Under the pieces are notes generated by a model that was given only the letters and a program-made list of their open reading frames with translations, ran no database searches and had not been told where the DNA came from. The translations under genes and the position numbers were made by a program. Of a stretch of DNA of 38,486 bases, positions 28 to 37,739 are shown piece after piece. The stretch is from Actinomycetota bacterium (GTDB lineage Bacteria > Actinomycetota > Actinomycetes > Actinomycetales > Kineosporiaceae). Every line of letters starts with the position of its first letter. The first letter of the stretch is position 1. The stretch is taken from assembly GCA_016213575.1 (NCBI GenBank), contig JACRAB010000277.1, positions 1 through 38,486 of the forward strand. Reading direction: 5' to 3'.

Positions 28-1464
28 TCAGCCGACGTCGAAAGTGATCTGCTTCTGGTTGGTGAAGGACGTCGGCGACGCCACTCCGAGGATGCGACCG
101 ATGCCCGACTTCTTCATGCCGCCGAAGGGAGCCAGCAGCTCCCAGTGGTTCGTCGTCCCGTTGACGTGCATGGTGCCGCAGTCGATGCCCTCGGCGAGCT
201 TCCACGCCGTGGGGATGGACGAGGTGAACACCGCGCCCTGCAGGCCGTACGGGGTCTCGTTGGCGATCTCGACGGCCTCGTCGACGGACCGGAAGGTCAT
301 GATCGGCACGACGGGTCCGAAGGTCTCCTCCTGCGCGATGAGCATGTCGGAGGTGACGCCGGTGATGACCGTCGGCTCGTGGTACAGGCCCTCGAAGCCG
401 CCTCCGAACACGATCGTGGCACCCTTCGCGACGGCGTCGTCGAGGTGCTGGCGGGTCTTGTCGAAGCTGCCCGCGAAGCACATCGGCCCCATCGTGGTGC
501 CGGGGTGCAGCGGGTCGCCCCCGACGACCTGCTTGCTCAAGTCCACCACGCGCGCGACGAAGTCGTCGAGCACGGCCTCGTGCACCAGGACCCGCTCGCT
601 GGCGGTGCAGACCTGGCCGCTGACGTAGTACGCGGAGTAGGTCGTCGCCGAGGCGGCCGCGTCGAGGTCGGCGTCGTCCATGACGACCACGGGCCCGTTG
701 CCGCCGAGCTCCAGCAGGAGCTTCTTGACGCCGGCGCCGCGCGCGATGGCCTCGCCGGTGGCGGTGCTGCCGACGAAGCCGAACATGTCGACGAGCGGGC
801 TGCTCACCAGGTGCGCACCGATGTCGCCGCGCCCGTGGAGCACGTTGATGACGCCCGGCGGGAGCGCCTCGGCGAGGCACTCGGCGAGCAGGTGGCCCGA
901 GCCCGGCGCGACCTCGCTCGGCTTCCAGACGACGGTGTTGCCGGTCGCCAGGGCGGGACCGAGGAGCTCGCACGGGATCGCGACCGGGAAGTTCCACGGC
1001 GTGGACAGCCCGACGACCCCGACCGGCACGTTCTGCACCAGCACCCGCTTGGGGTTGTCCGTCTCGGAGGACGTGCCCTGGACGGTCTGGCCCAGCAGGC
1101 GCAGGGCGTCGTCGGCGCCCATCTTCAGGTCGTGGACGGCGTAGTCGACATCCTCGTAGGACTCGGCGAGCGTCTTGCCCATCTCGCGGGTGATCAGGCG
1201 TGCCACCTCGTCCCGGCGCGCGTGCATAAGGTCTCCGGCCTTGTGGACGGCGTGGTTCCGGGCCAGCGGCGAGGCCGCCCCCCAGGCCCGCCGGGCCCGC
1301 GCCGCGGCGTCGATCGCGGCGTCGGCCTGCTCGATCGTGACCGCGGCGGCCGACGACACGAGCTCGTCGTTGTACGGGTTGCGGCGCGTGATGTCGGCTC
1401 CGGCGCCGTCGACCCACTGGCCGTCGATGAGCGCGCGTCCTCTGATCTGCTGGTCCTCGGGCAT
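28..1464 (-). CDS. NAD(P)-dependent aldehyde dehydrogenase family protein
   Basis: Full-length 478 aa ORF with ALDH motifs: PWNFPVAIP, LELGGNGPVVV, catalytic Cys in SGQVCTASERVLV, EETFGPVVP, PFGGMKKSGIGR. Confidence 0.95.
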   Translation of the reverse strand: MPEDQQIRGRALIDGQWVDGAGADITRRNPYNDELVSSAAAVTIEQADAAIDAAARARRAWGAASPLARNHAVHKAGDLMHARRDEVARLITREMGKTLAESYEDVDYAVHDLKMGADDALRLLGQTVQGTSSETDNPKRVLVQNVPVGVVGLSTPWNFPVAIPCELLGPALATGNTVVWKPSEVAPGSGHLLAECLAEALPPGVINVLHGRGDIGAHLVSSPLVDMFGFVGSTATGEAIARGAGVKKLLLELGGNGPVVVMDDADLDAAASATTYSAYYVSGQVCTASERVLVHEAVLDDFVARVVDLSKQVVGGDPLHPGTTMGPMCFAGSFDKTRQHLDDAVAKGATIVFGGGFEGLYHEPTVITGVTSDMLIAQEETFGPVVPIMTFRSVDEAVEIANETPYGLQGAVFTSSIPTAWKLAEGIDCGTMHVNGTTNHWELLAPFGGMKKSGIGRILGVASPTSFTNQKQITFDVG

Positions 1465-1590: not shown

Positions 1591-2343
1591 CTACACGATG
1601 GTCCAGCCGCCGTCGACGACCAGGGTGTGCCCCGTCATGTAGCTCGAGGCGTCGCTGGCGAGGAACAGCAGCGGGCCGTCGAGCTCGTGGGGATGACCGC
1701 CGCGCTTCATGGGCAGGCGGCGGAAGTAGCGTGCGTGCTCGGGCTCGAACAGGGAGGCGGTCATCTCCGAGGGGAAGTAGCCGGGCGCCAGGGCGTTGAC
1801 CCGCACACCGCGGGCCGACCACTGCGCCGCCAGCTCGCGGGTCAGGCTCGACACCGCGCCCTTGCTCGCGACGTACCCCGCCTCGGGGATCGCGCCGCTG
1901 GCCACCAACGCATTGATGGAGGAGATGTTCACGATCGAGCCGGAGCCCCGCTCCAGCATCGACCGCCCCACCAGCCGGCAGCAGCGGAACAGACCGGTCA
2001 CGTTCACCTCGAGCACGCGGGCGAAGGCGGCGCCGTCCTCGTCCTCGGCCGCCTCCACGTGGGTCGTACCGGCGTTGTTGACCAGGATGTCCAGCGATCC
2101 GCCCCACCGGTACGCCTGCTCCACCGCCGCCGCGACGTCATCCTCGTCGGTCACGTCACCGACGACCGGCAGGATCGCATCCGGGTACGCGCTCTCGAGC
2201 TCCTTGAGCCGGTCCGCACGGCGGGCGAGGACGACGACCTTCGCGCCGCGGCCCGCCAGCGTCGCGGCGAACCGCCTCCCCAGCCCGGACGAGGCGCCGG
2301 TGACGACGGCCACCTTGCCGACGACCGAGAACAGCTCAGACAC
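1591..2343 (-). CDS. SDR family NAD(P)-dependent oxidoreductase
   Basis: TGASSGLG cofactor motif, NNAG, YVASKGAV (YxxxK), C-terminal DGGWT. Confidence 0.94.
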   Translation of the reverse strand: MSELFSVVGKVAVVTGASSGLGRRFAATLAGRGAKVVVLARRADRLKELESAYPDAILPVVGDVTDEDDVAAAVEQAYRWGGSLDILVNNAGTTHVEAAEDEDGAAFARVLEVNVTGLFRCCRLVGRSMLERGSGSIVNISSINALVASGAIPEAGYVASKGAVSSLTRELAAQWSARGVRVNALAPGYFPSEMTASLFEPEHARYFRRLPMKRGGHPHELDGPLLFLASDASSYMTGHTLVVDGGWTIV

Positions 2344-2385
2344 AGCGACCTCGACTCCCTGGTGGTACCGACCGGCACTGACTTA

Positions 2386-2402
2386 TCGAATGTTCATTAA
2401 AG
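2386..2402. promoter_or_regulatory. Putative TetR-type operator (TCGAATGTTCATTAAAG) upstream of the SDR at 1591-2343
   Basis: Matches sites at 12839 and 15701: [CT]GAA[CT]GTTCAT[AT]AA; ~45 bp upstream of the SDR start. Confidence 0.55.
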
Positions 2403-2460: not shown

Positions 2461-3186
2461 TCAGGACGGGCGGCGGGTCCGGGTCCGGGCGGTGCCCTGG
2501 GCGCCCTGGGCGACGTGGGCCACGGGGGCGGCGGGGGCGGCGGGGGCGGCGGGGGCGCCGGCCTGGGCCATCGCAAGGGCCAGCCGTTCGTACCTGTTGG
2601 CCACCGCCTCCACCGACAGAGGGCCGTCGGGGTTGAACCAGGTGTGCACGTACTCGCACATCGTGATGATGGCGAAGGCGGTCGTGGTCACGTCCGCGAC
2701 CTGGAAGTGGCCCGTGTCGCCGCCGCTGCGAAGGATCTCCCGGACGTCGTCGAGGTACTCCCGCTCCATCGACCGGATCTCGCGGGCGCGGTCCTCCGGA
2801 AGGTGCTGCGAGAGCGCGCCCATGGTGAAGGCGAAGGCGCGCGCGACATCCGCCTGGTTGAGCTGCCAGGTCACATGGGCCCGCACCACCTGGCTGAGGT
2901 GGGTGACCGGGTCGTCAGCCGTCACGGACTTGCGCACGTACTCGAGGAAGTCGCGCATGGCCGTCTCGATGACGACGGCGTAGATCTCTTCCTTGGAGGG
3001 GAAATACCAGTAGAGCGCCGGCGCCGAGATGTCGAGCTCTTGCGCGATCATCTTCAGGCTCGTGCCGGCGTAGCCGTGCTGCAGGAACAGCTGCCCGGCC
3101 ATCTCCAGGACCCGCTCACGGGTGACCGAGTCGCCCGTGTCCACGGGCCGACCACGCCGTCGCGTCTTGCGCGCCACTTCTGCCAT
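2461..3186 (-). CDS. TetR/AcrR family transcriptional regulator with Ala/Pro-rich C-terminal tail
   Basis: N-terminal HTH (TSLKMIAQELDISAPALYWYFPSKEEIYAVV); C-terminal FAIITMCEYVHTWFNPDGP. Confidence 0.93.
   Translation of the reverse strand: MAEVARKTRRRGRPVDTGDSVTRERVLEMAGQLFLQHGYAGTSLKMIAQELDISAPALYWYFPSKEEIYAVVIETAMRDFLEYVRKSVTADDPVTHLSQVVRAHVTWQLNQADVARAFAFTMGALSQHLPEDRAREIRSMEREYLDDVREILRSGGDTGHFQVADVTTTAFAIITMCEYVHTWFNPDGPLSVEAVANRYERLALAMAQAGAPAAPAAPAAPVAHVAQGAQGTARTRTRRPS
2524..2558. repeat. GGGGGCGGC tandem low-complexity repeat
   Basis: Three to four direct copies of GGGGGCGGC; encodes APAAPAAPAAP in the TetR tail on the minus strand. Confidence 0.85.
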
Positions 3187-3281
3187 CGTCGCCGCTCCTG
3201 GACGTCAGGGGTCACAACAGTTTCCCGCGTTGGCCCGCAACGCGCTCGCCCCTACCGGGGTGGCCGTTCATGTGAGCATAC

Positions 3282-3295
3282 TGAATGTCCATTCA
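3282..3295. promoter_or_regulatory. Putative operator, inverted repeat TGAATG-TC-CATTCA, between divergent TetR and saccharopine-DH-like genes
   Basis: Exact inverted repeat read in sequence; ~18 bp upstream of the GTG start at 3313. Confidence 0.6.
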
Positions 3296-3312
3296 TTTAA
3301 CTAGGAGGTCGC

Positions 3313-4470
3313 GTGGCCAAGGTCGTGGTGGTCGGTGGTGCCGGCGAGGTCGGCCAGTGGGTCGTCCGGGATCTCGCGTCGAGAGCGTCCATCACCGAGG
3401 TGGTGGTGGCCGATGTGGCACGCGACAAGGGACTGGCACTGGCCGGGGAGCTGGGCGCCGGCGTCCGGTTCCTCGACGTCTCCGAGGACCGCAGCCGGGT
3501 GGTCGCCGAGCTGGCCTCGGCCAGCCTGATGATGAACTGCACAAGTCACGTCTTCTTCGACGATATCTTCCCGTTGGCGTTGGAGGCGCGGGTCAACTAT
3601 GCCGACCTGATCTCCGAGCCGACCAGCGAGCAGCGCAGGCAGACGCAGGAGGCAGGGATCCTCGCGGTGTCGGGGCTGGGGATCAGCCCCGGGGTGACGC
3701 AGGTCCTGGTGCGGCAGGCCGTCGAGGACCTCGACCAGGTCGACGAGGTACACGTCTCGGGGGTGTCGTGGCGCACGATCGCTCCGTCCCTGGGAGGCCT
3801 GGAGACGGTGCTGTGGGAGCTGGCCGAGACGACACCGACCCGGCAGTTCTTCCAGGGCGGGAAGTACCGCCGGGCGGGCGGCCTGGAGGGCAGCCGATGG
3901 GTGGACTTCCTCGAGCCGGTGGGCCGTCATCGCGTCTACTACGTGCCGCACCCCGAGACGACGTCCCTGGTGCGCAGCTTCCCGCAGCTGTCGTACTGCG
4001 CGACGCGGGTCAGCTGGCGGGACGAGATCATGGACGACGTGCGCGTGCTCAACAAGTACGGCCTCCTCGACGACGCCCTGGTCAAGGGCGCTGACGGGCT
4101 CACCATCCGGGAGGCGGTCCGGGACCGGATCTGGGAGGTCAAGGGCGGGGAGCGGGACGACTGCGGCTGGGCCCTCATGTGCACCGTGGAGATCGTGGGG
4201 GTGCACGACGGGCGGCCGCATGTGCGGACCTACCAGACGGGTCACCCGGCGTGGGGTCATGACGTCACGGGACGGGTGACCGGGGTCAGCGCGGCCGTGG
4301 GGGCCGAGCTGCTGGCGCTGGCGCCGCCGGTCGCGACCGGCTGGGTGGATCCCGAGCTCGCCTTCGCGCCCGGTCCCTTCCTGGCCGCACTGGCCGAGCG
4401 GGGCACGATTCCCATCGTGCAGAACGACCAGGCTCTCGATGGGCGCGCCCTCGCCCGGGACCACGCATGA
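3313..4470 (+). CDS. Saccharopine dehydrogenase-like (NAD(P)-binding Rossmann) family protein
   Basis: GTG start preceded by AGGAGG; N-terminal VVVVGGAGEVGQWVVRDLA, SGLGISPGVTQVLVRQAVE; architecture of saccharopine dehydrogenase/carboxynorspermidine synthase family. Confidence 0.8.
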   Translation: MAKVVVVGGAGEVGQWVVRDLASRASITEVVVADVARDKGLALAGELGAGVRFLDVSEDRSRVVAELASASLMMNCTSHVFFDDIFPLALEARVNYADLISEPTSEQRRQTQEAGILAVSGLGISPGVTQVLVRQAVEDLDQVDEVHVSGVSWRTIAPSLGGLETVLWELAETTPTRQFFQGGKYRRAGGLEGSRWVDFLEPVGRHRVYYVPHPETTSLVRSFPQLSYCATRVSWRDEIMDDVRVLNKYGLLDDALVKGADGLTIREAVRDRIWEVKGGERDDCGWALMCTVEIVGVHDGRPHVRTYQTGHPAWGHDVTGRVTGVSAAVGAELLALAPPVATGWVDPELAFAPGPFLAALAERGTIPIVQNDQALDGRALARDHA

Positions 4471-4611
4471 GCACGGCTGCCGCGCCGGAGCGGGGCGGGG
4501 GGCCGCGGCGACACGGTGTGAGCCAGGTGGCCGGGCGCGACAAGCGCTCGGCCCCTCCCGACGGGACCTTGACACCTCTCGGCCCCCCTCTTATCTTCGT
4601 CACTAAATTAT

Positions 4612-4627
4612 CGCTCATTAATGAGCG
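4612..4627. promoter_or_regulatory. Perfect 16-bp palindrome CGCTCATTAATGAGCG, putative operator
   Basis: Perfect dyad, followed by a TGAGCGTTCA half-site similar to the other operators; upstream of the TMADH-like gene. Confidence 0.6.
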
Positions 4628-4789
4628 TTCACAGGGGTTCGGGTGCGACGAGTCAGGGTCGGAGCCGGCACGCACGCCGGTGGCTCTGGGGGCTCCGCGC
4701 GACCCGGGCACCTGACATAGCTGGCGTTCGACGCGGCCGAGGAGCCGCCCCGCAGCGCGCTCCACCGAGCCGCCCTCCCAAGGAGTGAC

Positions 4790-6928
4790 ATGCCCAGCAA
4801 TCCCAGGCACGACGTCCTCTTCGAGCCGATCAGCATCGGGCCGAAGGTCGCGCGCAACCGGTTCTGGCAGCCGCCGCAGTGCAACGGTGCCGGCACCGAG
4901 AGCCCCGGCTTCAACGCCCAGCACCGGGGGATGAAGGCCGAGGGCGGCTTCGGCGTCGTCTTCACCGAGCTCATCGACATCGCGCCGGAGTGCGCCTGCG
5001 ACCCCTACGTGCTGCCGGACCTGTGGGACGACGACGACGTCCTCAACCTACGTCTGGCCACGGACGCCATCCACGCCGGTGGCGCGCTGGCCGGGGCGGA
5101 GCTCGGGTACTACAAGGTCACCGGCGGCAACCCGATGTCGCGCAAGGCCGCGTTCGGGGTCACCCAGACCAACAGCGACTGGGTCACCGTCCAGCACGGG
5201 GCCTCGCACAAGCAGTTCGAGGCGGAGGACGTCGACGAGATCGTCCGGATCCACGCCGACGCCGTCCGTAGGTCCATCGCCGCCGGTTACGACCTGGTGT
5301 CGCTGCAGATGGCGCACGCGGCGACGATCGCCATCCGTTCCCTCATGCGCTACTACAACAAGCGGACCGACGAGTACGGCGGGTCGTTCGAGAACCGCAT
5401 CCGCCTCACCCGCCAGATCCTCACGGGGATGCGGGAGGCCGCGGACGGCAAGGTTGCCCTCGGCTGCCGGTTCCACGTCAACACCCTCGACTTCCCCTTC
5501 GGCCTCGGGCCGGACGGGATCACCCGCGAGGAGGGGTACGCGACCCTCGAGGCACTCGACGACCTCGTCGACTTCTGGGACCTCACCGTGGGCGGCGGCG
5601 CGTGGGGCGAGGACGCCGGCTCGTCGCGCACGCACCGCGAGAACCACCAGGCGGAGTACATCAGGGGAGTCAAGGACCACACGACCAAGCCCGTCGCCAA
5701 CGTCGGCCGCTTCACCAACCCCGACACGATGGTGGACGCGATCCGCTCCAACCAGTGCGACTTCATCGCCATGGCACGGCCGTCGATCTCCGACCCGTTC
5801 CTGCCGAAGAAGATCGACGAGGGGCGCCTCGAGGACATCCGCGAGTGCATCGGCTGCAACATCTGCGCCTCGACCTGGGAGCGCGGGGTCAGGATCGTCT
5901 GCACCCAGAACGCCACCGCCGGCGAGGAGTTCCGCCGCGGCTGGCACCCGGAGCTGTTCACCCGTGCAACGAACAGCGAGCAGAGCGTCCTGGTCGTGGG
6001 GGCGGGGCCGGCCGGGATGGAGTGCGCCCGCGTCCTCGGCGAGCGCGGCATGGCCAACGTGCACCTCGTCGACGCCGGCGACGACCTCGGCGGCTCCCTG
6101 CGCTGGATCTCCAAGCTGCCGGGCCGCGGCGAGTGGGGCCGGGTCATCGACTACCGCAAGATCCAGCTGGGCAAGCTCAAGAACGTCCAGGTCATCCTCA
6201 AGACGACGATGACCGCCCAGGACGTCCTCGAGTACGGCGCCGACCTGGTCGTCATCGCGACCGGCTCGAGCTGGGACGCCGAGGGCGTGAGCTGGTACAG
6301 CCAGAGCCCCCTGCCGCTCACGGACGAGGCGCGCGCTCGCGTGCTCACGCCGGAGGACATCATGGTCAAGGAGGTGACTCCCGGCCAGCGGGTCGTGCTC
6401 TTCGACGCGGACAACTACTACATGGGTCACGGTCTCGCCGAGAAGCTCGCGAAGGCCGGGCACTCGGTGACCATGGTGACCGAGTCCGACACCATCGCCT
6501 CGTTCACGGCCTTCACGCTGGAGCACCCGCGTGTCCTGGCGGACCTGCGCAACGCGGGCGTGGAGATGATCGTCCGTGCGGAGGTCTCCGAGGTCGGCGA
6601 CGGTCGGATGACGCTGGCTCACGGGATCAACGGCGAGGAGCGGGTCCTCGACTTCGACAGCCTCGTCGTGGTCTCGCAGCGCTGGTCGAACAACGCGCTC
6701 TACCAGGAGCTGCGTCGGATGCCCGACGCGCTGGCGTCGAACGAGGTCAGCGGGCTGTACCTCATCGGCGACGCGGAGGCGCCGGCGCTCATCGCCGACG
6801 CCGTGTTCTCGGGCCACCGTCTCGCGCGGGAGATCGACTCGCCCAACCCGGCCGAGCCGCTGCCCTTCATCCGCGAGCGGCGCGTCGTGGGGCGCGGCGA
6901 CGAGGCGTACAAGCTGCCGGCCAGGTGA
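4790..6928 (+). CDS. Trimethylamine/dimethylamine dehydrogenase-like Fe-S flavoprotein (OYE-type TIM barrel plus ADP/FAD-binding domains)
   Basis: N-terminal HDVLFEPISIGPKVARNRFWQPPQC; CIGCNICASTWERGVRIVCTQNATAGEEFRRGWHPE 4Fe-4S motif; VLVVGAGPAGMECARVL; RBS AAGGAGTGAC. Confidence 0.93.
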   Translation: MPSNPRHDVLFEPISIGPKVARNRFWQPPQCNGAGTESPGFNAQHRGMKAEGGFGVVFTELIDIAPECACDPYVLPDLWDDDDVLNLRLATDAIHAGGALAGAELGYYKVTGGNPMSRKAAFGVTQTNSDWVTVQHGASHKQFEAEDVDEIVRIHADAVRRSIAAGYDLVSLQMAHAATIAIRSLMRYYNKRTDEYGGSFENRIRLTRQILTGMREAADGKVALGCRFHVNTLDFPFGLGPDGITREEGYATLEALDDLVDFWDLTVGGGAWGEDAGSSRTHRENHQAEYIRGVKDHTTKPVANVGRFTNPDTMVDAIRSNQCDFIAMARPSISDPFLPKKIDEGRLEDIRECIGCNICASTWERGVRIVCTQNATAGEEFRRGWHPELFTRATNSEQSVLVVGAGPAGMECARVLGERGMANVHLVDAGDDLGGSLRWISKLPGRGEWGRVIDYRKIQLGKLKNVQVILKTTMTAQDVLEYGADLVVIATGSSWDAEGVSWYSQSPLPLTDEARARVLTPEDIMVKEVTPGQRVVLFDADNYYMGHGLAEKLAKAGHSVTMVTESDTIASFTAFTLEHPRVLADLRNAGVEMIVRAEVSEVGDGRMTLAHGINGEERVLDFDSLVVVSQRWSNNALYQELRRMPDALASNEVSGLYLIGDAEAPALIADAVFSGHRLAREIDSPNPAEPLPFIRERRVVGRGDEAYKLPAR

Positions 6929-6944
6929 CCTGACCTACCGCGCC

Positions 6945-6980
6945 GAAGGGCCCCGTTGCCGAGAGGCAGCGGGGCCCTTC
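6945..6980. terminator. Probable bidirectional intrinsic terminator hairpin between convergent genes
   Basis: GAAGGGCCCCGTTGCC-GAGA-GGCAGCGGGGCCCTTC: 16-bp stem with one mismatch/wobble, 4-nt loop, between convergent CDSs. Confidence 0.8.
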
Positions 6981-7043
6981 TCCTGCGTCTGACGGGCCGG
7001 CGGACGAGGCGACGAACGAGGCCGGCGCCGTCGGTGACGACGG

Positions 7044-7706
7044 TCAGACCGCGACGGCGATCTCGGCGACGTCGGCCGGCACCTCGATCGGTGCGCCGGA
7101 CGCGGCGAGGACGTCGTCCGTCGTGACGCCGGGGGCGACCTCGCGCAGGACGAAGCCGGACGGCGCGACGTCGAGGACCGCGAGGTCGGTGATGACCCGG
7201 TCGACGACGCCGCTGCCGGTGAGCGGCAGCGAGCACCGGTCGAGGACCTTGTGGGTGCCGTCCCTGGCGACGTGCTCCATGAGGACGACGACCCGCTTCG
7301 CGCCGTGGACGAGGTCCATCGCGCCGCCCATGCCCTTGACCATCTTCCCGGGGATCATCCAGTTCGCGATGTCGCCACCCGACGACACCTGCATCGCGCC
7401 GAGGATCGCGGCGTCGACCTTGCCGCCGCGGATCATCCCGAACGACGTCGCGGAGTCGAAGAACGACGCCCCGGGCCGCAGCGTGACGGTCTCCTTGCCG
7501 GCGTTGATGAGGTCCGGGTCCTCCTCGCCCTCGAACGGGTAGGCCCCGAAGCCGAGGATGCCGTTCTCGGACTGCAGGACGAGCTCGACCCCCTCGGGCA
7601 CGTAGTTCGGCACGAGGGTCGGCAGGCCGATGCCGAGGTTGACGTACGAGCCGTCGGACAGCTCCGCGGCGGCCCGGGCCGCCATCTGCTCACGGGTGAG
7701 CGCCAT
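7044..7706 (-). CDS. scoB: 3-oxoacid CoA-transferase subunit B (SCOT beta)
   Basis: [78 protein letters not shown]. Confidence 0.95.
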
Positions 7707-7707
7707 G

Positions 7708-8517
7708 TCAGGCCTCCTGGCCGGTCGCGGTGGGACGGGGACGCACGGTGCGCTTCTCGATCTTCTTGTCGGCGGCCTGTTCCGGGGTCAGCGGGACGAT
7801 CCGCTGCACGTAGATCCCCGGCAGGTGGACGGCGTCCGCGTCGAGCTCGCCGGGCTCGACGAGCTCCTCGACCTCGGCGATCGCGACCCGGGCGGCCATC
7901 GCGGTGAGCGGGTTGAAGTTGCGGGCGCTCTCGTGGAAGACGAGGTTGCCGTGCCGGTCGCCCTTCCAGGCCCGGACCAGCCCGAAGTCGGTGACGATCG
8001 CGTGCTCCAGCACGAAGGCCTTCTCGACCGTTCCACCAGCACCGTCCGCGTTGGCGAACGGGCGGGTCTCCTTCGCCGGCGACGCGACGAGCACGGACCC
8101 GTCGGCGGCGTACCGCCACGGCAGCCCGCCGTCGGCGACCTGGGTGCCGACGCCGGTCGCGGTGTAGAACGCCGGGATGCCCGAGCCGCCGGCGCGCAGC
8201 CGCTCGGCGAGGGTGCCCTGCGGGGTCAGCTCGACCTCGAGCTCGCCGTCGAGGTACTGCCGGGCGAACTCCTTGTTCTCCCCGACGTACGAGGCGACGA
8301 CGCGGCGGATCCGGCCGGCGCCGAGCAGGATGCCCAGCCCCGCGCCGTCCACGCCGCAGTTGTTCGAGACGACCTCGAGGTCCTTGGCGCCCTGCTCGTG
8401 GAGCGCCGCGATGAGGACCGACGGGATCCCGCAGAGGCCGAAGCCCCCCACCGCCAGCGACGACCCGTCGCCGATGTCGGCGACCGCTGCCGCCGCGTCC
8501 CGGACCAGCTTGTCCAT
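7708..8517 (-). CDS. scoA: 3-oxoacid CoA-transferase subunit A (SCOT alpha)
   Basis: [80 protein letters not shown]. Confidence 0.95.
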
Positions 8518-8627
8518 GCTCGATCACGTCCTTCGATCTGGGTCGCGCCCTGGGCGGCCTGGGCGCCTCGGCGGACGGGATGGTGCTGCCGTCGAGGAAC
8601 CGGGCGCGTCTGCGGGTCCTGCTTGGG

Positions 8628-9416
8628 TCAGGCTGGTCGGTAGTAGCCGGCCGTCGCGCCTCCGTCGATGGCGTAGACCAGACCGTTGGTGTACGACGCC
8701 TCCTCGCTGAGCAGGTGGGCGACGGCGCGCGCGACCTCGTCCGGCATGGCGAAGCGTCCCAGGGGGACACTCGCCCGGTAGAAGTCCGCCTCGCCCTCCG
8801 GCGAGTCCTGGAAGATCCGTTGCGCCATGGGGGTCTCGACGAACGCCGGAGCGACGGCGTTGGACCGCACCCCGTGCGGGCCGAAGTCCAGGGCGAGGCA
8901 GCGCACGAGCCCGACGACCGCGTGCTTGGACGCCGTGTAGGCGGAGTACCCCTGGGCGCCGGTGGTCCCGGCGTCCGAGGCGACGGCGACGAACGCTCCA
9001 CGGGTGTCGATCAGCGACGCCATCGTGGCCTTGGCGACGTTGAAGACGCCGGTGGCGTTGACGTCGAGCGCCCGCTGCCACTCCTCGGGGGCGAGGTCGA
9101 GGACCGACCCGAGCACCTCGATCCCCGCGCAGGCCGCGACACCCGCGAGCCGGCCGTACATCGACTCGGCCCGCCCGACGACGTCACGCAGACCCTGCAG
9201 GTCCGTCACGTCACACGGGGTGGCGAGCACCTGGGCGCCGGCTGCGGCCAGGGTGGCCGCCGCCGCCTCGACGCCCGCGCTGTCACGGTCGACGAGTGTC
9301 ACGGCGCGGCCGTCGCGGGCGAGCCGGGTGGCCACGGCGAGACCGATGCCGGAGGCGGCGCCGGTGACGAGGGCCGGCCCGGGACCGGGGTCCGGGCTCG
9401 TGCCGTCCGTGCTCAT
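8628..9416 (-). CDS. SDR family oxidoreductase
   Basis: VTGAASGIGLAV, YSAYTASKHAVVGLVRCLALDFG, DGGATAGYY; start ATG overlaps the upstream stop (ATGA). Confidence 0.93.
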   Translation of the reverse strand: MSTDGTSPDPGPGPALVTGAASGIGLAVATRLARDGRAVTLVDRDSAGVEAAAATLAAAGAQVLATPCDVTDLQGLRDVVGRAESMYGRLAGVAACAGIEVLGSVLDLAPEEWQRALDVNATGVFNVAKATMASLIDTRGAFVAVASDAGTTGAQGYSAYTASKHAVVGLVRCLALDFGPHGVRSNAVAPAFVETPMAQRIFQDSPEGEADFYRASVPLGRFAMPDEVARAVAHLLSEEASYTNGLVYAIDGGATAGYYRPA

Positions 9417-10432
9417 GCTGTCTGCACCTGACGGACCCCGAGACCCAACAGCTGGCGGTACTCGGCGGGGGTGGCGATGGGGCGTCCGAGGGCGTCGGCG
9501 ATCGAGTGCGCGAGCCGCAGCGCTTCGGCGTTGGACTCGAGGCGGTCCTCGCGGTGCGGCCACTTGAAGTACGTGTCCTCCATCCCGACGCGGACGTGGA
9601 CGCCGAGGGTGGCGGCGAGGGTGGCCAGGTGCATGGAGGCCCGGCCTGCGGCCGAGACGAGGATGATGCCGTTGGGGTCGACGTCGCGGATGAGTCCGAT
9701 GTTGCGGGTCAGGCCCTCGACCATCTGGCGGGGGTTGTCCATCGGGGAGCAGCCCGGGAGCGCCGGCAGGATCACCCAGACCGCGCCTGGTGCCACCAGG
9801 CCGCTGCGCAGCAGGTAGCGGTCGGCGTTGGAGACGTCGGCGTCGGTGTATACGGCGATCTCGGGCTTGGCGCCGGACTCGACGATGAGGCGGGTCTTCT
9901 CAAGCAGGATCGGGGTCGGCTTCACGAACAGGGAGTCGCCGATGTACGTCGCCGTGGAGTTGACCGGGGCGGCGTCGAGCAGCCCGGAGTCCAGCACGCG
10001 CCTCATCTCGTCCCACTCGCCGTCGAGCGCGGGCACCAGGCAGCCGTCGACGACCAGGTCGGGGTACTCGGCGTGCAGCGGCTCGATGACCTGGGCGAAG
10101 CGCTCCAGGGACAGCGTGTTGTAGCCGTTGTCGTCGCGGACGTGGATGTGGACGGTGCTGGCACCCGCCTCGACGACGGAGCGCGCAGCGTCGAGGATCT
10201 CCTGGGTGGTGACGGGCTGCCCAGGGTTCTGAGACTTCTGGAAGAACGCGCCGGTGATGGTGACGGAGACGGCGAGCCGGTCGGGCAGGTCCCACGCCTC
10301 GGAGATCGGGGCGTCGTGGTAGGCCGTGTTCTCCAGGTCGAGGATCGTCGGCAGACCGTAAGGCCGCCAGATCATCTTCTGGCGCTCGCGCTCGACACCC
10401 TTGCGGACGCGGTCCCAGTCGATCGTGGTCAT
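9413..10432 (-). CDS. BKACE family (DUF849; 3-keto-5-aminohexanoate cleavage protein-like) beta-keto acid cleavage enzyme
   Basis: VSVTITGAFFQKSQNPGQPVTTQEI, HIHVRD metal motif, AAGRASMHLATLAATLGVHVRVGMEDTYF; ATGA overlap with upstream SDR supports start 10432. Confidence 0.9.
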   Translation of the reverse strand: MTTIDWDRVRKGVERERQKMIWRPYGLPTILDLENTAYHDAPISEAWDLPDRLAVSVTITGAFFQKSQNPGQPVTTQEILDAARSVVEAGASTVHIHVRDDNGYNTLSLERFAQVIEPLHAEYPDLVVDGCLVPALDGEWDEMRRVLDSGLLDAAPVNSTATYIGDSLFVKPTPILLEKTRLIVESGAKPEIAVYTDADVSNADRYLLRSGLVAPGAVWVILPALPGCSPMDNPRQMVEGLTRNIGLIRDVDPNGIILVSAAGRASMHLATLAATLGVHVRVGMEDTYFKWPHREDRLESNAEALRLAHSIADALGRPIATPAEYRQLLGLGVRQVQTA

Positions 10433-11271
10433 GAGGTGGACTCCTTGTGGTCGGTGGGGGTGTGTTCTCCGAGGCCGGGTTCCCAGGTGGGTTCGTTGAA
10501 GGTGTGCCGGCGCTGCCGCATCCACTGCGGCTGGCCGTACAGCGACTGGCCGCCGTCGACGCCGAGAGTCGCTCCGCTCACCCAGGCAGCGTCGGCGGAG
10601 GCGAGGAACGCGACTGCGGCAGCGATGTCCTGTGGCGCCCCCAGGCGTCGCAGGGGGGTGCGGTCGACGAGGTCGTCACGGACGCCGGGTGCGGCGAGCA
10701 TCCCGTGGGTCATTCCGGTCTCGACGACGCCGGGCAGGACGGCGTTGACGCGGATGCCGTGGACGCCGAGCTCGGCGGCCATCGAGCGGGTCAGGTCGAG
10801 CAGGGCGCTCTTGGTGACGCAGTAGGGGCCGACCTGGTCGGCATGGGTGAGCGCAAGGCTGGAGGAGATGACGACCAGGCTGCCGCCGCGGCCGGCCTCG
10901 GCCATCCGTCGGGCCGCGGCCTGCAGCACGTGGAAGGTGCCGACGAGGTTGACCGAGACGTGCCGCTCGAACGTCCTGGCATCCAGGTCGAGCCAGCTGC
11001 CGAACTTGGCGTACCCGGCGTTCGCGACGACGACGTCCAGAGGTCCGTGCTGCGAGGTCAGGGCGAGCAGCGCCTCGTCGACTGCGGTGCGCTCGGTCTG
11101 GTCGGCGACCGTCCAAGCCCGGAAGGGACCGAGGTCGGCGGGGGCTGGCGCCCGGTCCAGGCCGACCACGGTGTAGCCGTCGGCATGGAGCCGGTCGGCG
11201 ATGCCACGCCCCAGTTCTCCGGCGGCGCCCGTGACCAAGGCGACGCCGGCCCCACCGGTCGCGCGGGTCAC
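10429..11271 (-). CDS. SDR family oxidoreductase
   Basis: ALVTGAAGELGRGIADRL, VANAGYAKFG, YCVTKSALLDLTRSMAAELG, DGGQS. Confidence 0.92.
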   Translation of the reverse strand: MTRATGGAGVALVTGAAGELGRGIADRLHADGYTVVGLDRAPAPADLGPFRAWTVADQTERTAVDEALLALTSQHGPLDVVVANAGYAKFGSWLDLDARTFERHVSVNLVGTFHVLQAAARRMAEAGRGGSLVVISSSLALTHADQVGPYCVTKSALLDLTRSMAAELGVHGIRVNAVLPGVVETGMTHGMLAAPGVRDDLVDRTPLRRLGAPQDIAAAVAFLASADAAWVSGATLGVDGGQSLYGQPQWMRQRRHTFNEPTWEPGLGEHTPTDHKESTS

Positions 11272-11318: not shown

Positions 11319-12503
11319 TCAGGCCTGCGCTCGGGCCGGCGCGGCGATGAGGTCGCGGATGCGCACCCGTTCGGTGGCGACCCCGTTCTCGAGGCGGTGC
11401 AGCTGCAGTCCGCCGCCGCCGCGGCTGACGGTGCGCAGGCTGGCGAAGAAGTCGGCAGGCCGCAGGTGCTCTGGTGAGCGGATCCCGGGGTCGGCGAAGC
11501 GGCCGTCGGCGAGCAGCAGCAGCCCCGCGGCGGCCGGGATCCCGGTGGCCTCGGCCATCTCGGTCTCGGCGCCGGAGGAGTACCGCAACCCGTTGCCGTC
11601 GGTGTGGATGTCGATGACCAGGCCACTGCCGACGCGCCCGGTGTCAGGGCGGGAGTCGCGGTAGGCGGCGAAGACGTCGACGGCCTTGCCCGTGACGTCC
11701 TCGAGCGCGTCGCCGCCCTCGTGGCGGTCCGGGGCGACGGCGTAGGCCAGGCTCCAGGCGACGCGCATGGCGTCGTCCGGGGTGATCGACCCGTAGTTGC
11801 GGCTGTTTTTCACCGGCAGGAACCGCGGCACGGTGAGGGGCTCGGGGTGGGCCAGGCGGACGACCTCCCGCGGCCCGACGCTGCCCGGGAAGTCGATCAC
11901 GACACGGTCCAGGTCGTCCCACGAGGGAACGGGGTGGCTGGTGCCATCGGCGTCCACGAGGTTGAAGCAGTGCCAGAAGTGCCGGACCGCGGCAGGGGTC
12001 ATGTCGCCGATGTCGACGGTCCAGTAGATGTCGACGGAGTCGGCCTGGCCGAGGTAGTCCACGGCGGCGCGAATGAGGACGTTCGTCGTCCCCGGGGAGG
12101 AGCCCATGCCCACCAGGGCGGTGATGCCGGCATTCCGGGCCTGCTCGTCGTACCCGAGCAGACCGAGGACGGCGTCGGCGTCGTCGCAGATGTCGAGGTA
12201 GTCCGTTCCCGCGGCGATGGCGGCGGTCAGGACCGCTGAACCGGTGCGGTAGTAGGGACCCGCGAGGTTCGCAACCACCCGCGCGTCGGCCAGGATCGAG
12301 GCGAGCCGGTCCGGTTCCTCGAACAGGTCCAGGGTCTGGCGCGGCATGCCGAGAGCATCCAGGGCCGCGGCCGCCTCCGGGCGCCAAGCCCGGTCCAGGG
12401 CCAGCCACGACGTGAGCGGTGTGGCTCGGGCGGCACCTTCGATCATCGCCTGCGCCTGGGAGCCACCGGCCCCGATCACGACAACGTCCCACTGACGACT
12501 CAT
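11319..12503 (-). CDS. Saccharopine dehydrogenase-like family protein (second copy in window)
   Basis: MSRQWDVVVIGAGGSQAQAMIEGAA, VVANLAGPYYRTGSAVLTAAIAAGTDYLDICDDA, GITALVGMGSSPGTTNVLIRAAVDYL; start chosen at 12503. Confidence 0.85.
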   Translation of the reverse strand: MSRQWDVVVIGAGGSQAQAMIEGAARATPLTSWLALDRAWRPEAAAALDALGMPRQTLDLFEEPDRLASILADARVVANLAGPYYRTGSAVLTAAIAAGTDYLDICDDADAVLGLLGYDEQARNAGITALVGMGSSPGTTNVLIRAAVDYLGQADSVDIYWTVDIGDMTPAAVRHFWHCFNLVDADGTSHPVPSWDDLDRVVIDFPGSVGPREVVRLAHPEPLTVPRFLPVKNSRNYGSITPDDAMRVAWSLAYAVAPDRHEGGDALEDVTGKAVDVFAAYRDSRPDTGRVGSGLVIDIHTDGNGLRYSSGAETEMAEATGIPAAAGLLLLADGRFADPGIRSPEHLRPADFFASLRTVSRGGGGLQLHRLENGVATERVRIRDLIAAPARAQA

Positions 12504-12823: not shown

Positions 12824-12837
12824 GACCACCTCCATAA

Positions 12838-12849
12838 ATGAACGTTCAT
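12838..12849. promoter_or_regulatory. Putative TetR operator ATGAACGTTCAT (12-bp perfect palindrome)
   Basis: Perfect palindrome in intergenic region between divergent operon and TetR gene; same core at 15701. Confidence 0.65.
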
Positions 12850-12932
12850 AAACGTGGCAGGAAGTCGCGGTATCGTCAACCCCATGCAGCCTGGGATCTC
12901 ACCCAAGACAGCCGGGCCGCTTGTCTCCACCT

Positions 12933-13074: not shown

Positions 13075-13719
13075 ATGGCAGCAAGTACGCAGACACGCAC
13101 GCACGACACCGCCACAGCTCGGCGGTCCGACACGAGGGACCGGCTCCTCGCGGTCGCCATCGAGATGTTCGGCAGCCGTGGGTACGACTCCACCAGTCTT
13201 CGCGACATCGCCTCCGCCGTAGGCATCAAGCCGCCGGCGGTGTACAACCACTTCGAGTCCAAGGAACAGCTGCTCGGCGAGGCGGTTTCATGGATGATCG
13301 CCGACTTCATGACCTGCGTGGTCACGCCGGACGATCCGACCGCGGACGCCATGGTCCGCCTGCGCGGGCTGATGACTCGTCACGTGCACTATCAGCTCGA
13401 GAAGGGCGCCCTGGCCCGCGCGAACGACCTCATGATGGAGTCCGAGGCCCTGCGGCACACCATGCCCGAGGACGCAGCAGCACGCGTCCGGCGAGACATG
13501 CGCAGCTACATCGACCTGCTCACGGATCTGGTCGCCCAGGTGCGCGCCAAGGGTGGCGCAGGTCGGAAGGCCACCTCCGCGAGAGTCGTGGCGTTCGGGA
13601 TCGTCAGCATGTGCGACCGGGTCCAGACCTGGTGGCGACCAGACGGTCCGATGACGCCGACCCAGATCGCTGACGAGTTCTGGGCGTTCGCTGCGGAGGG
13701 CCTAGGAGTGCAGGCCTGA
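13075..13719 (+). CDS. TetR/AcrR family transcriptional regulator
   Basis: DTRDRLLAVAIEMFGSRGYDSTSLRDIASAVGIKPPAVYNHFESKEQLL; C-terminal MCDRVQTWWRPDGP resembling the TetR at 2461-3186; start is a choice among 13030/13075. Confidence 0.92.
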   Translation: MAASTQTRTHDTATARRSDTRDRLLAVAIEMFGSRGYDSTSLRDIASAVGIKPPAVYNHFESKEQLLGEAVSWMIADFMTCVVTPDDPTADAMVRLRGLMTRHVHYQLEKGALARANDLMMESEALRHTMPEDAAARVRRDMRSYIDLLTDLVAQVRAKGGAGRKATSARVVAFGIVSMCDRVQTWWRPDGPMTPTQIADEFWAFAAEGLGVQA

Positions 13720-14433: not shown

Positions 14434-15399
14434 TCACCGAAAGGCCGCAGCTTCGCTTTCCGAGCTCCGTAGTCCGAGGTGCCTGCCGAGGAACGCAAGC
14501 TGGACGTGGATGACCCCGTCGAACGCCTTGCCGTAGGCGTCGAAGTGCCCGCCCTCGAACAGATGCAGCTCCTTGGGCTCGAGCGCCGATTCGAAACTCT
14601 CCACGGCCAGGCGCGTCGGGGTCACCCAGTCCTCGGTGGCTACGCACATCAGAAGCGGGGTAGGTGAGATCAGGCGCACGTAGGCACCGGGCAGGTACTC
14701 GGAGAAGCGCTCGGCGCTGCGCAGAGTGCACTGGTTCACAAACGCCGGCGCCCCTGCGGCCGAGGTCTCGCTGAACCAGGCCCACGCGTCGGGAGTCGGC
14801 AGGACTGCAGGAGCGGTGGGATCGGGGTCGACGACCTTGACGCGACGCGGCGGGTGACCGGCAGCCCGCGACCTCCGGTCGGCCTCGAACGATCGCTTCG
14901 CACGACCGACGCGGTCAGCGCGGACCATGTGCCTGAAGTTCGCATCAACGTTGACGACAGGGACCTGCGCCAGAACGCACTTGACCCGACGGTCCTGCGC
15001 TCCGACGACGAGGACGTGGCCTCCCGAATAGCTGGATCCCCACACGGCCACCCTGTCAGCGTCGACGCCCGGCAGGGCTTCGGCGAATGTGATGGCGTTG
15101 CGCATGTCGTCGACCTGCTGCCACGGGTTGAGGTCACCGCGCGGTTCGCCGTCCGAGGCACCCAGGCCGCGATTGTCGTAGCACAGCACGTGGCAGCCGG
15201 CCGAGGCGAAGGCCTCGGCGTACCTGTCGAGACACATCTCCTTCACGGCCGCGAACCCGTGGCACATGACAACGATGGGGGCTCGAGCCTGCAAGCCGGC
15301 GGGCGCATAGTGCCATCCGCGCAGCGTCACGCCGTCGGAATCGAACTCCACATCGTCACGCCTGTGCGGCATGCCCGTCACCGTGGCCTCCTTCGGCAC
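14434..15399 (-). CDS. Alpha/beta hydrolase
   Basis: VVMCHGFAAVKE, CHVLCYDNRGLGASDGEPR, VAVWGSSYSGGHVLVVGA; true start may be 15372. Confidence 0.88.
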   Translation of the reverse strand: MPKEATVTGMPHRRDDVEFDSDGVTLRGWHYAPAGLQARAPIVVMCHGFAAVKEMCLDRYAEAFASAGCHVLCYDNRGLGASDGEPRGDLNPWQQVDDMRNAITFAEALPGVDADRVAVWGSSYSGGHVLVVGAQDRRVKCVLAQVPVVNVDANFRHMVRADRVGRAKRSFEADRRSRAAGHPPRRVKVVDPDPTAPAVLPTPDAWAWFSETSAAGAPAFVNQCTLRSAERFSEYLPGAYVRLISPTPLLMCVATEDWVTPTRLAVESFESALEPKELHLFEGGHFDAYGKAFDGVIHVQLAFLGRHLGLRSSESEAAAFR

Positions 15400-15700
15400 C
15401 CGATGCCCGCAGGAGCATGTCGTGCGACCGCTCCTTCGGGCGACGCCTGCTTCAGCACCTCACCGACCTCCATGTTCGGCAACGCCTTGGCAGGGCGAAC
15501 TGATGGGCATCCCGCGATCTCGCGATGCACCGCCTGGCAGACGGACGAGCGGGCGGCCGACGAACTCCCGACTGACCCGCGGTTGCGGCCAACCGGAGTT
15601 TCCTTGCGCCAACGAACTGGGAACACCGCCCTGCCCGTTCAGTGATCCAGACCGCGCCGACGCCACGACCACGATTCACGCCGCACGATTCCTGAATTAA

Positions 15701-15716
15701 CGAACGTTCATAAATG
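15701..15716. promoter_or_regulatory. Putative TetR-type operator CGAACGTTCATAAATG
   Basis: Same core as sites at 2387 and 12839; ~300 bp upstream of the alpha/beta hydrolase gene. Confidence 0.5.
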
Positions 15717-18141: not shown

Positions 18142-19314
18142 TCAGAGGGAGGCGTACAGGGCTTCCTCGAAGTCCCCGTACATCTTCCACGCCTGGTCCC
18201 TCGTGATGAAGGGCAGCGAGTTGGTGTAGATCGACGCGCAGATCCCCGTCGTCCTGTCGATGAAGAAGTGGGTGTTGAACAGGCCCGCCCAGGCGCCCGT
18301 GCCGGCGCGGCGACGTCCAGGGACGTCGGCGCTGTTGAGCAGCAGCCCGTACCCCCACTTGTAGCCCGGCCCGACCGACAGGGTGTCGGTGATCGGCGGG
18401 TCGGCCGTCGGGATCTCGGCCGGAACGTCGAGGTCGCCGATCTGGTTCGTGAACGCGGCGTCCACGGTGGCCTGGCCGAGGATCCGCTCGCCGTCGAGCT
18501 CGCCGCCCCGCAGGAGGGCACGCTCGAAGCGGATGTAGTCGCGGGGCGTCGAGTAGAGGCCGTGGCCGCCGGCCCACCACTCCGGCTGCTGGTTGAGGAG
18601 CTCGCCGGCCGACGTCCAGCCGCCGTCCTCACCGGGTACGTGGACGGTGACGGCGTTCTCCCGGCGAGCGTCGTCGAGCAGGAACATGGTGTCGTCCATG
18701 CGCAACGGGCCGGTGATGCCCTCCTTGACGACGACGTCCAGCCCCCGGCCGGTGACGGCCTCCACGACACGGCCCAGCCAGTCGGTGTTGATGCCGTACT
18801 CGAACCGGGTGCCGGGATCGGCCACGAGCGGCGCCTTCAGTGCCTCGAGGCGGCCGGGGACGACGTTCGGGAGTCCGGTGACCGCCTCGTACTTCACGAG
18901 ATCCGCGTTCCAGAACCAGTACGTCAGGCCGCTCGTGTGCGTGACGAGCTGCTTCACCGTGGCCCGGGAGGCCGGCGGGCGCAGGCGCGGCGTGTCACCG
19001 TCGAAGCCGTCCAGCACCTGCAGGTCGCCGAAGTCGGGACAGTACTGCTCGACCGGCGCGTCGAGGTCGAGCGCGCCGCTCTCCACCTGCTGCAGCGCGG
19101 CCGCGGTGACCACCATCTTGGTCATCGACATGATGCGGAACTGCGTGGCAGCAGTCACCGGGTCGTTCCCGCCGGCCACGCGGACGCCGGCCGCGCCCTC
19201 GTAGACCACGCCGTCCCGATCGGCGGCGATCGCCACCACGTGCGGCACCGCCCCGCCCTCCACAGCCTGCGCGAGCACGGTGTCGATCCTGCCCCCGTCG
19301 ATCTGCTGACCCAT
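18142..19314 (-). CDS. Serine hydrolase, beta-lactamase/class C-like esterase family
   Basis: FRIMSMTKMVVTAAALQQVESGALDLDAPVEQY (SxxK), LVTHTSGLTYWFW, GGHGLYSTPRDYIRFERALL. Confidence 0.92.
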   Translation of the reverse strand: MGQQIDGGRIDTVLAQAVEGGAVPHVVAIAADRDGVVYEGAAGVRVAGGNDPVTAATQFRIMSMTKMVVTAAALQQVESGALDLDAPVEQYCPDFGDLQVLDGFDGDTPRLRPPASRATVKQLVTHTSGLTYWFWNADLVKYEAVTGLPNVVPGRLEALKAPLVADPGTRFEYGINTDWLGRVVEAVTGRGLDVVVKEGITGPLRMDDTMFLLDDARRENAVTVHVPGEDGGWTSAGELLNQQPEWWAGGHGLYSTPRDYIRFERALLRGGELDGERILGQATVDAAFTNQIGDLDVPAEIPTADPPITDTLSVGPGYKWGYGLLLNSADVPGRRRAGTGAWAGLFNTHFFIDRTTGICASIYTNSLPFITRDQAWKMYGDFEEALYASL

Positions 19315-20121: not shown

Positions 20122-20988
20122 TCAAGCGGTCTCCTCCTGGGCCCACTCGTCGCGTGTCACATCGCGTGACACCAACAGGACGCGACCTCCAGGCAGTTGT
20201 CGTGCCGCAACGTCACGCGCGTCCAGCACCCGCCCGGCGTCGTCGCGGAGTACTCCTCGCGCGCTCGTCTCGTCTTGTGTTCGCAAGGCCCGCAGGATCA
20301 GCTCGCCCAGCCAGAGGGCCGCCTCCGGACCGATCAACTCGTCCAGCCACCGGTCGGAGGCTAGGGCAGCTGAGATGCCGAGCGCATCGGCGGCGGTCTG
20401 GTTCACGAAGACCAGCCGGGCGCGAGCCGCCCTGGCCGCAGTGGCGTGACTGATCACCGCCAGGTCGTTGGCCGTTCCTCCGTCGGGGCGCACCACGACC
20501 ACCGCGTCGCTCAACGCATCGAGCACGGTTCTCAAGTCGTCGAGGGCTTCGCTGCGGGTGCGTAGCGTGTCTTCCAGAACGTGCTCGGCGACGACGTGTT
20601 CGGTGATGTCCCGCCAGGTGGACAGCAGATGGTCGTGGTCCAGGCGCACCACAAGCGAGTCCGTCAGCCCGGCGGCAGCGCTGCCAGAGAGTGTCGTTCG
20701 CAGGCGCTGCCGCTGGCCGGTCTGGGCGCACCGCCGGAACGCGTGGATCAGCTGCGCACTGCTGGGGCCGAGCGGTTCGGTCACGTCCGCACCGATGAGG
20801 TGGTCCGGGTCGGAGGTGAACGGCGCGGCACCGGATGCGTTGGTCAGCTCCAGGAGGAACGACTGCGGTCGCCCAGCAGCGTCGCGGACGACACGGTGAA
20901 CGTCGAACCCGTCCGGTGAGGCGTCCAGCGCTGAACGCAGCAGGTCCCAGGCGTCCAACCCGGTGCCGGCGGTGTCAGGGTCGGTCAT
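20122..20988 (-). CDS. PAS-domain protein lacking an output domain (possibly truncated)
   Basis: Two PAS-like segments (ALDASPDGFDVHRVVRDAAGRPQSF...; VLDALSDAVVVVRPDG...RLVFVNQTAADALGI), ends at RDVTRDEWAQEETA; start overlaps upstream stop (ATGA). Confidence 0.75.
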   Translation of the reverse strand: MTDPDTAGTGLDAWDLLRSALDASPDGFDVHRVVRDAAGRPQSFLLELTNASGAAPFTSDPDHLIGADVTEPLGPSSAQLIHAFRRCAQTGQRQRLRTTLSGSAAAGLTDSLVVRLDHDHLLSTWRDITEHVVAEHVLEDTLRTRSEALDDLRTVLDALSDAVVVVRPDGGTANDLAVISHATAARAARARLVFVNQTAADALGISAALASDRWLDELIGPEAALWLGELILRALRTQDETSARGVLRDDAGRVLDARDVAARQLPGGRVLLVSRDVTRDEWAQEETA

Positions 20989-37486: not shown

Positions 37487-37698
37487 CTACTCGTTAGGCC
37501 GGCAGATCCCGGCCGCCGAACACGCGGCGTCGATGGCGCGCAACGTCGCCACGGTGGCCGCCATCGGCCTCAGGGGCGTCTCGAGGTGACCTTGGGCGAC
37601 GTGATCCGCTGGATGGTGCCGGCGCGGACGGCGCGGATGAAGCGGTCCGCGATGCGGCCCGTGCCCATCACACCCCCACGCAGGGTCGGCGCAGTCAT
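37487..37698 (-). pseudogene. Remnant of a Gfo/Idh/MocA-type oxidoreductase with large internal deletion
   Basis: N-terminus MTAPTLRGGVMGTGRIADRFIRAVRAGTIQRIT followed within ~100 bp by a C-terminus-like HLETPLRPMAATVATLRAIDAACSAAG in another frame. Confidence 0.5.
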
Positions 37699-37739
37699 CG
37701 GGTCGGGCGCGCGCGCCGCGATGCTGTGAGGTAGCGGCG

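Follow-up and report, generated by a model that had tools for sequence, protein, structure and literature searches.

Described enzymes of the TMADH family

In the TMADH family, an amine is oxidised on a 6-S-cysteinyl FMN, and the electrons leave singly through a 4Fe-4S centre to an ETF. Arguments about what the Tyr-His-Asp triad does in TMADH have relied on mutants, and Val344 and Tyr442 of this enzyme are presumably its ETF-docking residues. Dimethylamine dehydrogenase (DMADH), considered here through its reported residues only, is said to differ from TMADH by the substitutions Tyr60 to Gln, Ser74 to Thr and Trp105 to Phe. Quaternary ammonium compounds are not known to be substrates of the established members (TMADH, DMADH, histamine dehydrogenase and Pno), all of which oxidise amines whose lone pair is free.

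We take PDB 6l6j to be, probably, the 6-hydroxypseudooxynicotine dehydrogenase Pno of P. geniculata, based on the alanine at its cysteine position (PMC7688666). Pno acts in an alkaloid pathway, where it oxidises a bulky N-methyl amine with an ETF as partner (PMC7688666). In the Rhizobium histamine dehydrogenase, the active site or the entry tunnel is built from Gln60, Glu74, Tyr171, His174, Phe176 and Trp263, and Tyr171, His174 and Asp265 constitute the catalytic triad (PMC10180351).

Family membership and active-site residues

The window, that is, the whole stretch of DNA analysed, comprises 38,486 nucleotides of an Actinomycetota bacterium assigned to the Kineosporiaceae (contig JACRAB010000277.1), and its features are collected in Table 1. 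The TMADH-like open reading frame has no internal stop, its ATG start is preceded by AAGGAG, and its codon bias is strong. Pfam assigns PF00724 (Oxidored_FMN), PF22620 (OYE-like second alpha/beta domain) and PF07992 (Pyr_redox_2) to the protein, whose single chain comprises an FMN barrel, a 4Fe-4S cysteine motif and Rossmann domains at the C-terminal end, the arrangement by which the TMADH/histamine dehydrogenase family is recognised. Methylophilus TMADH (PDB 1djn/2tmd) matches it over the whole length (residues 4-698, 621.7 bits, E 1.7e-185) with 45.9% identity, the highest value for any solved enzyme; the histamine dehydrogenases of Nocardioides/Pimelobacter (3k30) and Rhizobium (6de6) reach 43% and 40%, respectively, 6l6j reaches 38.6%, and the closest sequence found reaches 51%. 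An AlphaFold model built from four sequences has a pLDDT of 48 and a pTM of 0.44. Judged by the sequence comparisons, the reading frame encodes a complete TMADH-family protein distinct from both TMADH and histamine dehydrogenase.

Table 1. Features of the window (positions counted from its first letter)
Feature	Position	Strand	Remark
Aldehyde dehydrogenase (ALDH)	28..1464	-	
SDR oxidoreductase 1 (SDR1)	1591..2343	-	
Operator-like motif	2385..2401	-	upstream of SDR1/ALDH
TetR regulator 1 (TetR1)	2461..3144	-	
Operator-like motif	3280..3296	-	between TetR1 and SacDH1
Saccharopine-dehydrogenase-like protein 1 (SacDH1)	3313..4470	+	directly upstream of TMADH-like gene, same strand
Sigma-70-like promoter TTGACA-17-TATCTT	4569..4597	+	upstream of TMADH-like gene; 1 found, 0.1 expected
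Palindrome CGCTCATTAATGAGCG (4612-4627) and operator-like motif TTAATGAGCGTTCACA	4612..4633	+	just past -10 box
TMADH-family iron-sulphur flavoprotein, 712 aa	4790..6928	+	Oxidored_FMN barrel, [4Fe-4S], Rossmann domains
Cys31 codon	4880..4882	+	TMADH Cys30, 6-S-cysteinyl-FMN site; alignment
Leu61 codon	4970..4972	+	TMADH Tyr60, bowl; alignment
Leu75 codon	5012..5014	+	TMADH Ser74; alignment
Gly106 codon	5105..5107	+	TMADH Trp105; alignment
Gln173 codon	5306..5308	+	TMADH Tyr169, Tyr-His-Asp triad; alignment
His176 codon	5315..5317	+	TMADH His172, triad, retained; alignment
Ala178 codon	5321..5323	+	TMADH Tyr174; alignment uncertain by one residue
Trp272...Asp275	5603..5614	+	TMADH Trp264, Asp267, retained; alignment
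[4Fe-4S] site Cys353-X2-Cys356-X2-Cys359...Cys371	5846..5902	+	alignment
Trp363 codon	5876..5878	+	TMADH Trp355; alignment
3-oxoacid CoA-transferase subunit B	7044..7706	-	
3-oxoacid CoA-transferase subunit A	7708..8517	-	
SDR oxidoreductase 2 (SDR2)	8628..9416	-	
BKACE (beta-keto acid cleavage enzyme)	9413..10432	-	
SDR oxidoreductase 3 (SDR3)	10429..11271	-	
Saccharopine-dehydrogenase-like protein 2 (SacDH2)	11319..12503	-	58% identical to Rhizobium, Sphingobium plasmid proteins
Operator-like motif	12834..12850	+	between SacDH2 operon and TetR2
TetR regulator 2 (TetR2)	13075..13719	+	40-43% identical to TetR of plasmid modules (about 42%, Rhizobium)
Alpha/beta hydrolase	14434..15267	-	46-47% identical to plasmid-module hydrolases (Rhizobium 46%)
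Operator-like motif	15696..15712	+	intergenic, upstream of alpha/beta hydrolase

Residues were mapped by aligning the protein with TMADH, the two histamine dehydrogenases and relatives. Besides the domain layout, it shares with TMADH the flavin cysteine (C30, here C31), H172 (H176), R222 (R227), W264 (W272), D267 (D275), W355 (W363) and all four Fe-S cysteines (345/348/351/364, here 353/356/359/371). Replaced are Y60 (L61), S74 (L75), W105 (G106), Y169 (Q173), Y174 (A178), H29 (Q30) and N57 (F58), and Val344 and Tyr442 correspond to Glu352 and Arg451; the choice between Ala178 and Thr179 is uncertain by one residue because the protein has a one-residue insertion there. The original prediction had read the flavin and Fe-S cysteines, His172, Trp264, Asp267 and Trp355 as kept and Tyr60, Tyr169 and Tyr174 as changed to Leu, Gln and Ala; the alignment agrees on every residue named, the last with the same uncertainty, and adds the changes at S74, W105, H29 and N57 that had been overlooked.

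The accompanying description of an altered aromatic bowl stands for one residue of three, since in Tyr60/Trp264/Trp355 (here Leu61, Trp272 and Trp363) only Tyr60 is altered, and Tyr169 is a triad residue (PMC10180351). On this alignment, the Gln that replaces it alters the catalytic triad, not the bowl. The triad, Gln173/His176/Asp275 here, is not intact; it is typical of the family without defining it, and family membership stands because the full-length homology and the cofactor ligands hold. The Leu, Gln and Ala positions, for which a place outside the pocket would have counted against the proposal, lie within it, as their equivalents line the active site or tunnel of the Rhizobium histamine dehydrogenase (PMC10180351). 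With larger side chains replaced by Leu, Gly and Ala, the pocket is probably remodelled, roomier and more hydrophobic, and four smaller or aliphatic replacements (L, L, G, A) would fit a bulkier substrate.

FMN would be covalently bound at Cys31. Beside it, at position 29, stands a glutamine where 45/45 sequences outside the clade described below have histidine, and this substitution could weaken flavinylation. Flavinylation of TMADH is autocatalytic, and a search for ApbE was set aside on that account.

Phylogeny and gene surroundings of relatives

A maximum-likelihood tree was built from 52 full-length sequences drawn from the same class and phylum, plasmids, other genomes and the PDB. The Aminobacter aminovorans pAA02 relative (L061 10001-12149), a split gene annotated as two overlapping pieces and apparently frameshifted, was left out. 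The TMADH-like protein falls in a clade of seven members (support 100/98), together with G499, a Rhodococcus plasmid, two copies in G588, G049 (same genus) and a Gemmobacter plasmid; these six others come from five different genomes or plasmids, and none of the characterised enzymes among the 52 sequences belongs to the clade. This placement, along with identities that peak at 45.9% for solved enzymes and 51% for any sequence, supports the proposal of a family member distinct from TMADH and histamine dehydrogenase; the value for characterised enzymes stays below the 60% beyond which that proposal was to be given up.

An intact Tyr169+His172 pair is present in 0/7 clade members and in 42/45 sequences outside (Fisher p 9e-7, a value that overstates independence because the rows are related). 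Phe57 occurs in 7/7 members versus 1/45 outside, a Pro/Gly insertion at residues 236-238 of the TMADH-like protein in 7/7 versus 0/45, and Trp355 in 6/7 versus 6/45. The cysteine at position 30 is not universal, with Ala in 14/45 sequences outside the clade, and the nearest sister in the tree, L015 (G499), lacks both the flavin cysteine and Trp355 and has unrelated neighbours.

Trp264 and Trp355 are kept, and together with the 45.9% identity they would suit an enzyme that still acts as TMADH or DMADH with a drifted pocket. However, true orthologues on plasmids of Azoarcus and Cupriavidus (82% identical to TMADH) and of Paracoccus (74%) keep the whole bowl and triad, and the TMADH clade (support 100/100) excludes our protein, in which Tyr60, Ser74, Trp105 and Tyr169 are changed; we regard such a function as highly improbable. 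At positions 60/74/105 the protein has Leu/Leu/Gly, and DMADH reportedly has Gln/Thr/Phe. A primary-amine substrate, as in histamine or polyamine dehydrogenases, is very unlikely. The fold, the flavin cysteine, the Fe-S site, Trp264 and His172 are common to the protein and these enzymes, and Glu and Arg stand at TMADH positions 344 and 442, as they do in nearly all non-TMADH members. The histamine dehydrogenases nevertheless fall in the other half of the tree, possess the triad tyrosine and carry Gln60, Glu74 and Asp355, where the protein has Leu, Leu and Trp; the set Gln60/Trp264/Asp355 that the prediction had given for them was correct by the alignment. Unlike our protein, 6l6j has Ala at the cysteine position (non-covalent FMN), an intact triad and Val in place of Trp355.

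The altered residues might instead mark lost amine dehydrogenase activity in a decaying or repurposed flavoprotein, since the protein departs from its relatives in 14 alignment columns that at least 88% of them conserve, and saturation mutagenesis of Tyr171 and Phe176 in the Rhizobium histamine dehydrogenase gave active clones with the wild-type residue only (PMC10180351). Decay is hard to reconcile with an open full-length frame, strong codon bias, the retention of all cofactor ligands, a promoter-like site of its own and a shared operator-like site, or with six other clade members, from five genomes or plasmids, that likewise lack an intact Tyr-His pair, and we consider loss of activity a scarcely credible explanation.

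Several relatives offer functional hints through their neighbours. The folate-gene-linked proteins of the clade (G049, G588 and Gemmobacter plasmid p2; 48-50% identity) share with ours Phe57, Trp264, Trp355 and the broken Tyr-His pair but differ in keeping or varying Tyr169, in having lost His172, and in lying adjacent or close to an aminomethyltransferase gene. For instance, the neighbours in G049 are a GcvT-like aminomethyltransferase, PurU, FolD, ETF beta and alpha and an APC permease, while an aminomethyltransferase, an APC permease and PurU are near the Gemmobacter plasmid gene. Judged from translations, both G588 copies lie a few kb from an aminomethyltransferase-like gene, and one is also close to an amino-acid-permease-like gene. 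The Aminobacter relative has the same kind of context (aminomethyltransferase and APC permease nearby), but its gene is split. The aminomethyltransferase/PurU/ETF/permease context is the signature of a folate-linked N-demethylase. Within the window, no ETF or folate gene adjoins the TMADH-like gene. The Rhodococcus plasmid relative belongs to a catabolic cluster that also encodes P450, a reductase, hydrolases and aldehyde dehydrogenases, and the G499 relative has amine oxidases, an acyl-CoA dehydrogenase and a CoA ligase as neighbours.

The catabolic module

The module around the TMADH-like gene is largely conserved on plasmids of Rhizobium sp. Pop5, Sinorhizobium chiapasense and a tomato-associated Sphingobium, with identities of 49-54% for SDR3, 43-46% for SDR2, 44-67% for BKACE and 52/68% for the CoA-transferase. 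BKACE, SDRs, a saccharopine-dehydrogenase-like protein, TetR and an operator-like motif, all common to the window and the rhizobial and Sphingobium plasmids, identify it as the same module. The plasmid versions (L087 10936-28581; L088; L063 7446-20987) comprise SacDH-like, BKACE, SDR, CoA-transferase or CoA ligase, ALDH and TetR genes, and instead of a TMADH-like gene they carry a DAO flavoenzyme, a choline-kinase-like kinase and SurE; the rhizobial ones also carry an ETF. Since they have a DAO and no TMADH-like gene was found near them, the TMADH-like enzyme may be an add-on to the module.

At the limits used, SacDH1 had no homologues in the plasmids or in the 395 class genomes, its own aside, and among those 395 SacDH2 was found in its own genome only. 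The presence of both genes in 1/395 class genomes suggests that they were horizontally acquired.

Lysine fermentation (3-keto-5-aminohexanoate cleavage) was rejected as a role for BKACE, which scored 128.6 bits against a cutoff of 382. The literature on calystegine, tropine and tomatine pathways as substrate sources gave no matching gene cluster, and no substrate of the plasmid module was found in the literature searched. The series to which the Sphingobium isolates belong was obtained from soil treated with tomatine, and we found no mention of the module in the consulted text of the paper describing them (PMC10653915).

Promoter-like site and shared operator-like motif

The sigma-70-like promoter of the TMADH-like gene is followed by AATGAGCGTTC, which overlaps the palindrome (4612-4633). 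With one mismatch allowed, AATGAACNTTC has seven matches over both strands of the 38 kb, at five places, against a mean of 0.27 expected, a statistic that is not fully independent because the motif was first recognised by inspecting these sites. All five places (2388, 3283, 4620, 12837 and 15699) are intergenic. In a leave-one-out analysis, a matrix built from four sites ranked the fifth 4th-8th of about 77,000 positions, and everything ranked above it was a further copy or strand of these five sites. The same matrix recovered promoter positions in the Rhizobium, Sinorhizobium and Sphingobium modules, whose genomes are richer in A+T, with scores of 24-29 compared with at most 14 in unrelated loci. 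A TetR regulator would act through this putative operator, and the shared sequence suggests joint induction of the TMADH-like gene and a plant-associated breakdown pathway.

A stricter 16-base motif had one additional match across the 5.9 Mb genome, as many as a reversed control pattern. It lies on contig C541 and precedes an APC permease gene by 44 bp, and a second, weaker operator-like site is located just upstream of a DAO-GcvT fusion with a dimethylglycine/sarcosine-dehydrogenase-like layout. This region (L109, G000; 2571-10717) also contains ETF beta/alpha, one of three ETF pairs in the genome, and PurU, and the contig additionally encodes a CoA ligase and an SDR; these are the kinds of genes that adjoin the TMADH-like gene in the sister clade.

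As a special case of our main reading, given below, the TMADH-like enzyme could replace the DAO flavoenzyme of the rhizobial module on the same intermediate. The DAO enzymes of the rhizobial and Sphingobium modules are 61% identical to each other, the window module has none, and the best match to them in the genome reaches 26%. On the other hand, the DAO-GcvT fusion on C541 has the same operator-like motif, so a DAO partner may exist, and only some module genes are common to both versions; we judge this replacement unlikely.

Proposed function

We think it probable that the gene encodes a regulon-embedded N-alkyl/N-methyl amine dehydrogenase, a reading that includes its promoter, the TetR-type operator and the BKACE module. 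The reaction, electron acceptor, substrate class and order of module reactions are what we infer from the comparisons above. The enzyme would oxidise the C-N bond of an N-alkyl amine on covalently bound FMN, the substrate being most likely an N-methyl tertiary or secondary amine from a plant compound; this class is extrapolated, as the clade contains no characterised enzyme. A betaine, which the original prediction had offered as an option, is unlikely because known family members act on amines with a free lone pair. Electrons would leave by way of the [4Fe-4S] centre, with an ETF as the most likely acceptor, and the missing Val344 and Tyr442 say little on this point, since 6l6j, probably the ETF user Pno, also lacks them (PMC7688666). 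The imine product would hydrolyse to an aldehyde and the dealkylated amine.

In the pocket, the two tryptophans would hold the ammonium group, with Tyr60, Trp105 and Tyr174 gone. Proton handling must differ if the enzyme works without the tyrosine of the Tyr-His-Asp triad, and deprotonation of the substrate ammonium would have to rely on His176 or solvent in place of Tyr169. The gene would have a promoter of its own, controlled by a TetR-type operator common to the catabolic module. In this module, a beta-hydroxy acid would be oxidised to a beta-keto acid, which BKACE would cleave, with acetoacetate recovered through the CoA-transferase.

More tentatively, the protein and its clade might form a third functional TMADH branch that oxidises plant-product N-methyl amines without the triad, our protein acting in an undescribed operator-linked pathway common in outline to actinobacteria, plasmid-bearing rhizobia and sphingomonads; we see this as possible but somewhat doubtful. 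A natural clade in which every sampled member lacks an intact Tyr-His pair offers a direct test of the triad requirement and would show the same scaffold reshaped for new amines. The module and its linked operator sites suggest that a plant-associated N-methyl or N-alkyl compound is broken down by an undescribed route, for which Rhizobium and Sphingobium offer ready genetic models. The clade-wide triad loss and the module are more notable than the bowl residue alone.

Additional genes

A paralogue of the TMADH-like gene, 48% identical, ends at the edge of contig C162 (L042, G000; 7506-8654). It has Glu/Glu/Asp at positions 60/74/355, nearer to the histamine dehydrogenase pattern, and relatives in G049 and G093 show the same pattern. 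Downstream of the module, the window encodes two beta-lactamase-fold (family VIII-type esterase) proteins (18142-19314 and 20985-22208) and several alpha/beta hydrolases. An aldo/keto reductase frame at 35569-36475 is seemingly split (35569-35853 and 35990-36475), perhaps by a frameshift or an assembly error, and a phytanoyl-CoA dioxygenase-like protein at 37570-38475 has an odd arginine/proline-rich tail, as if frameshifted.
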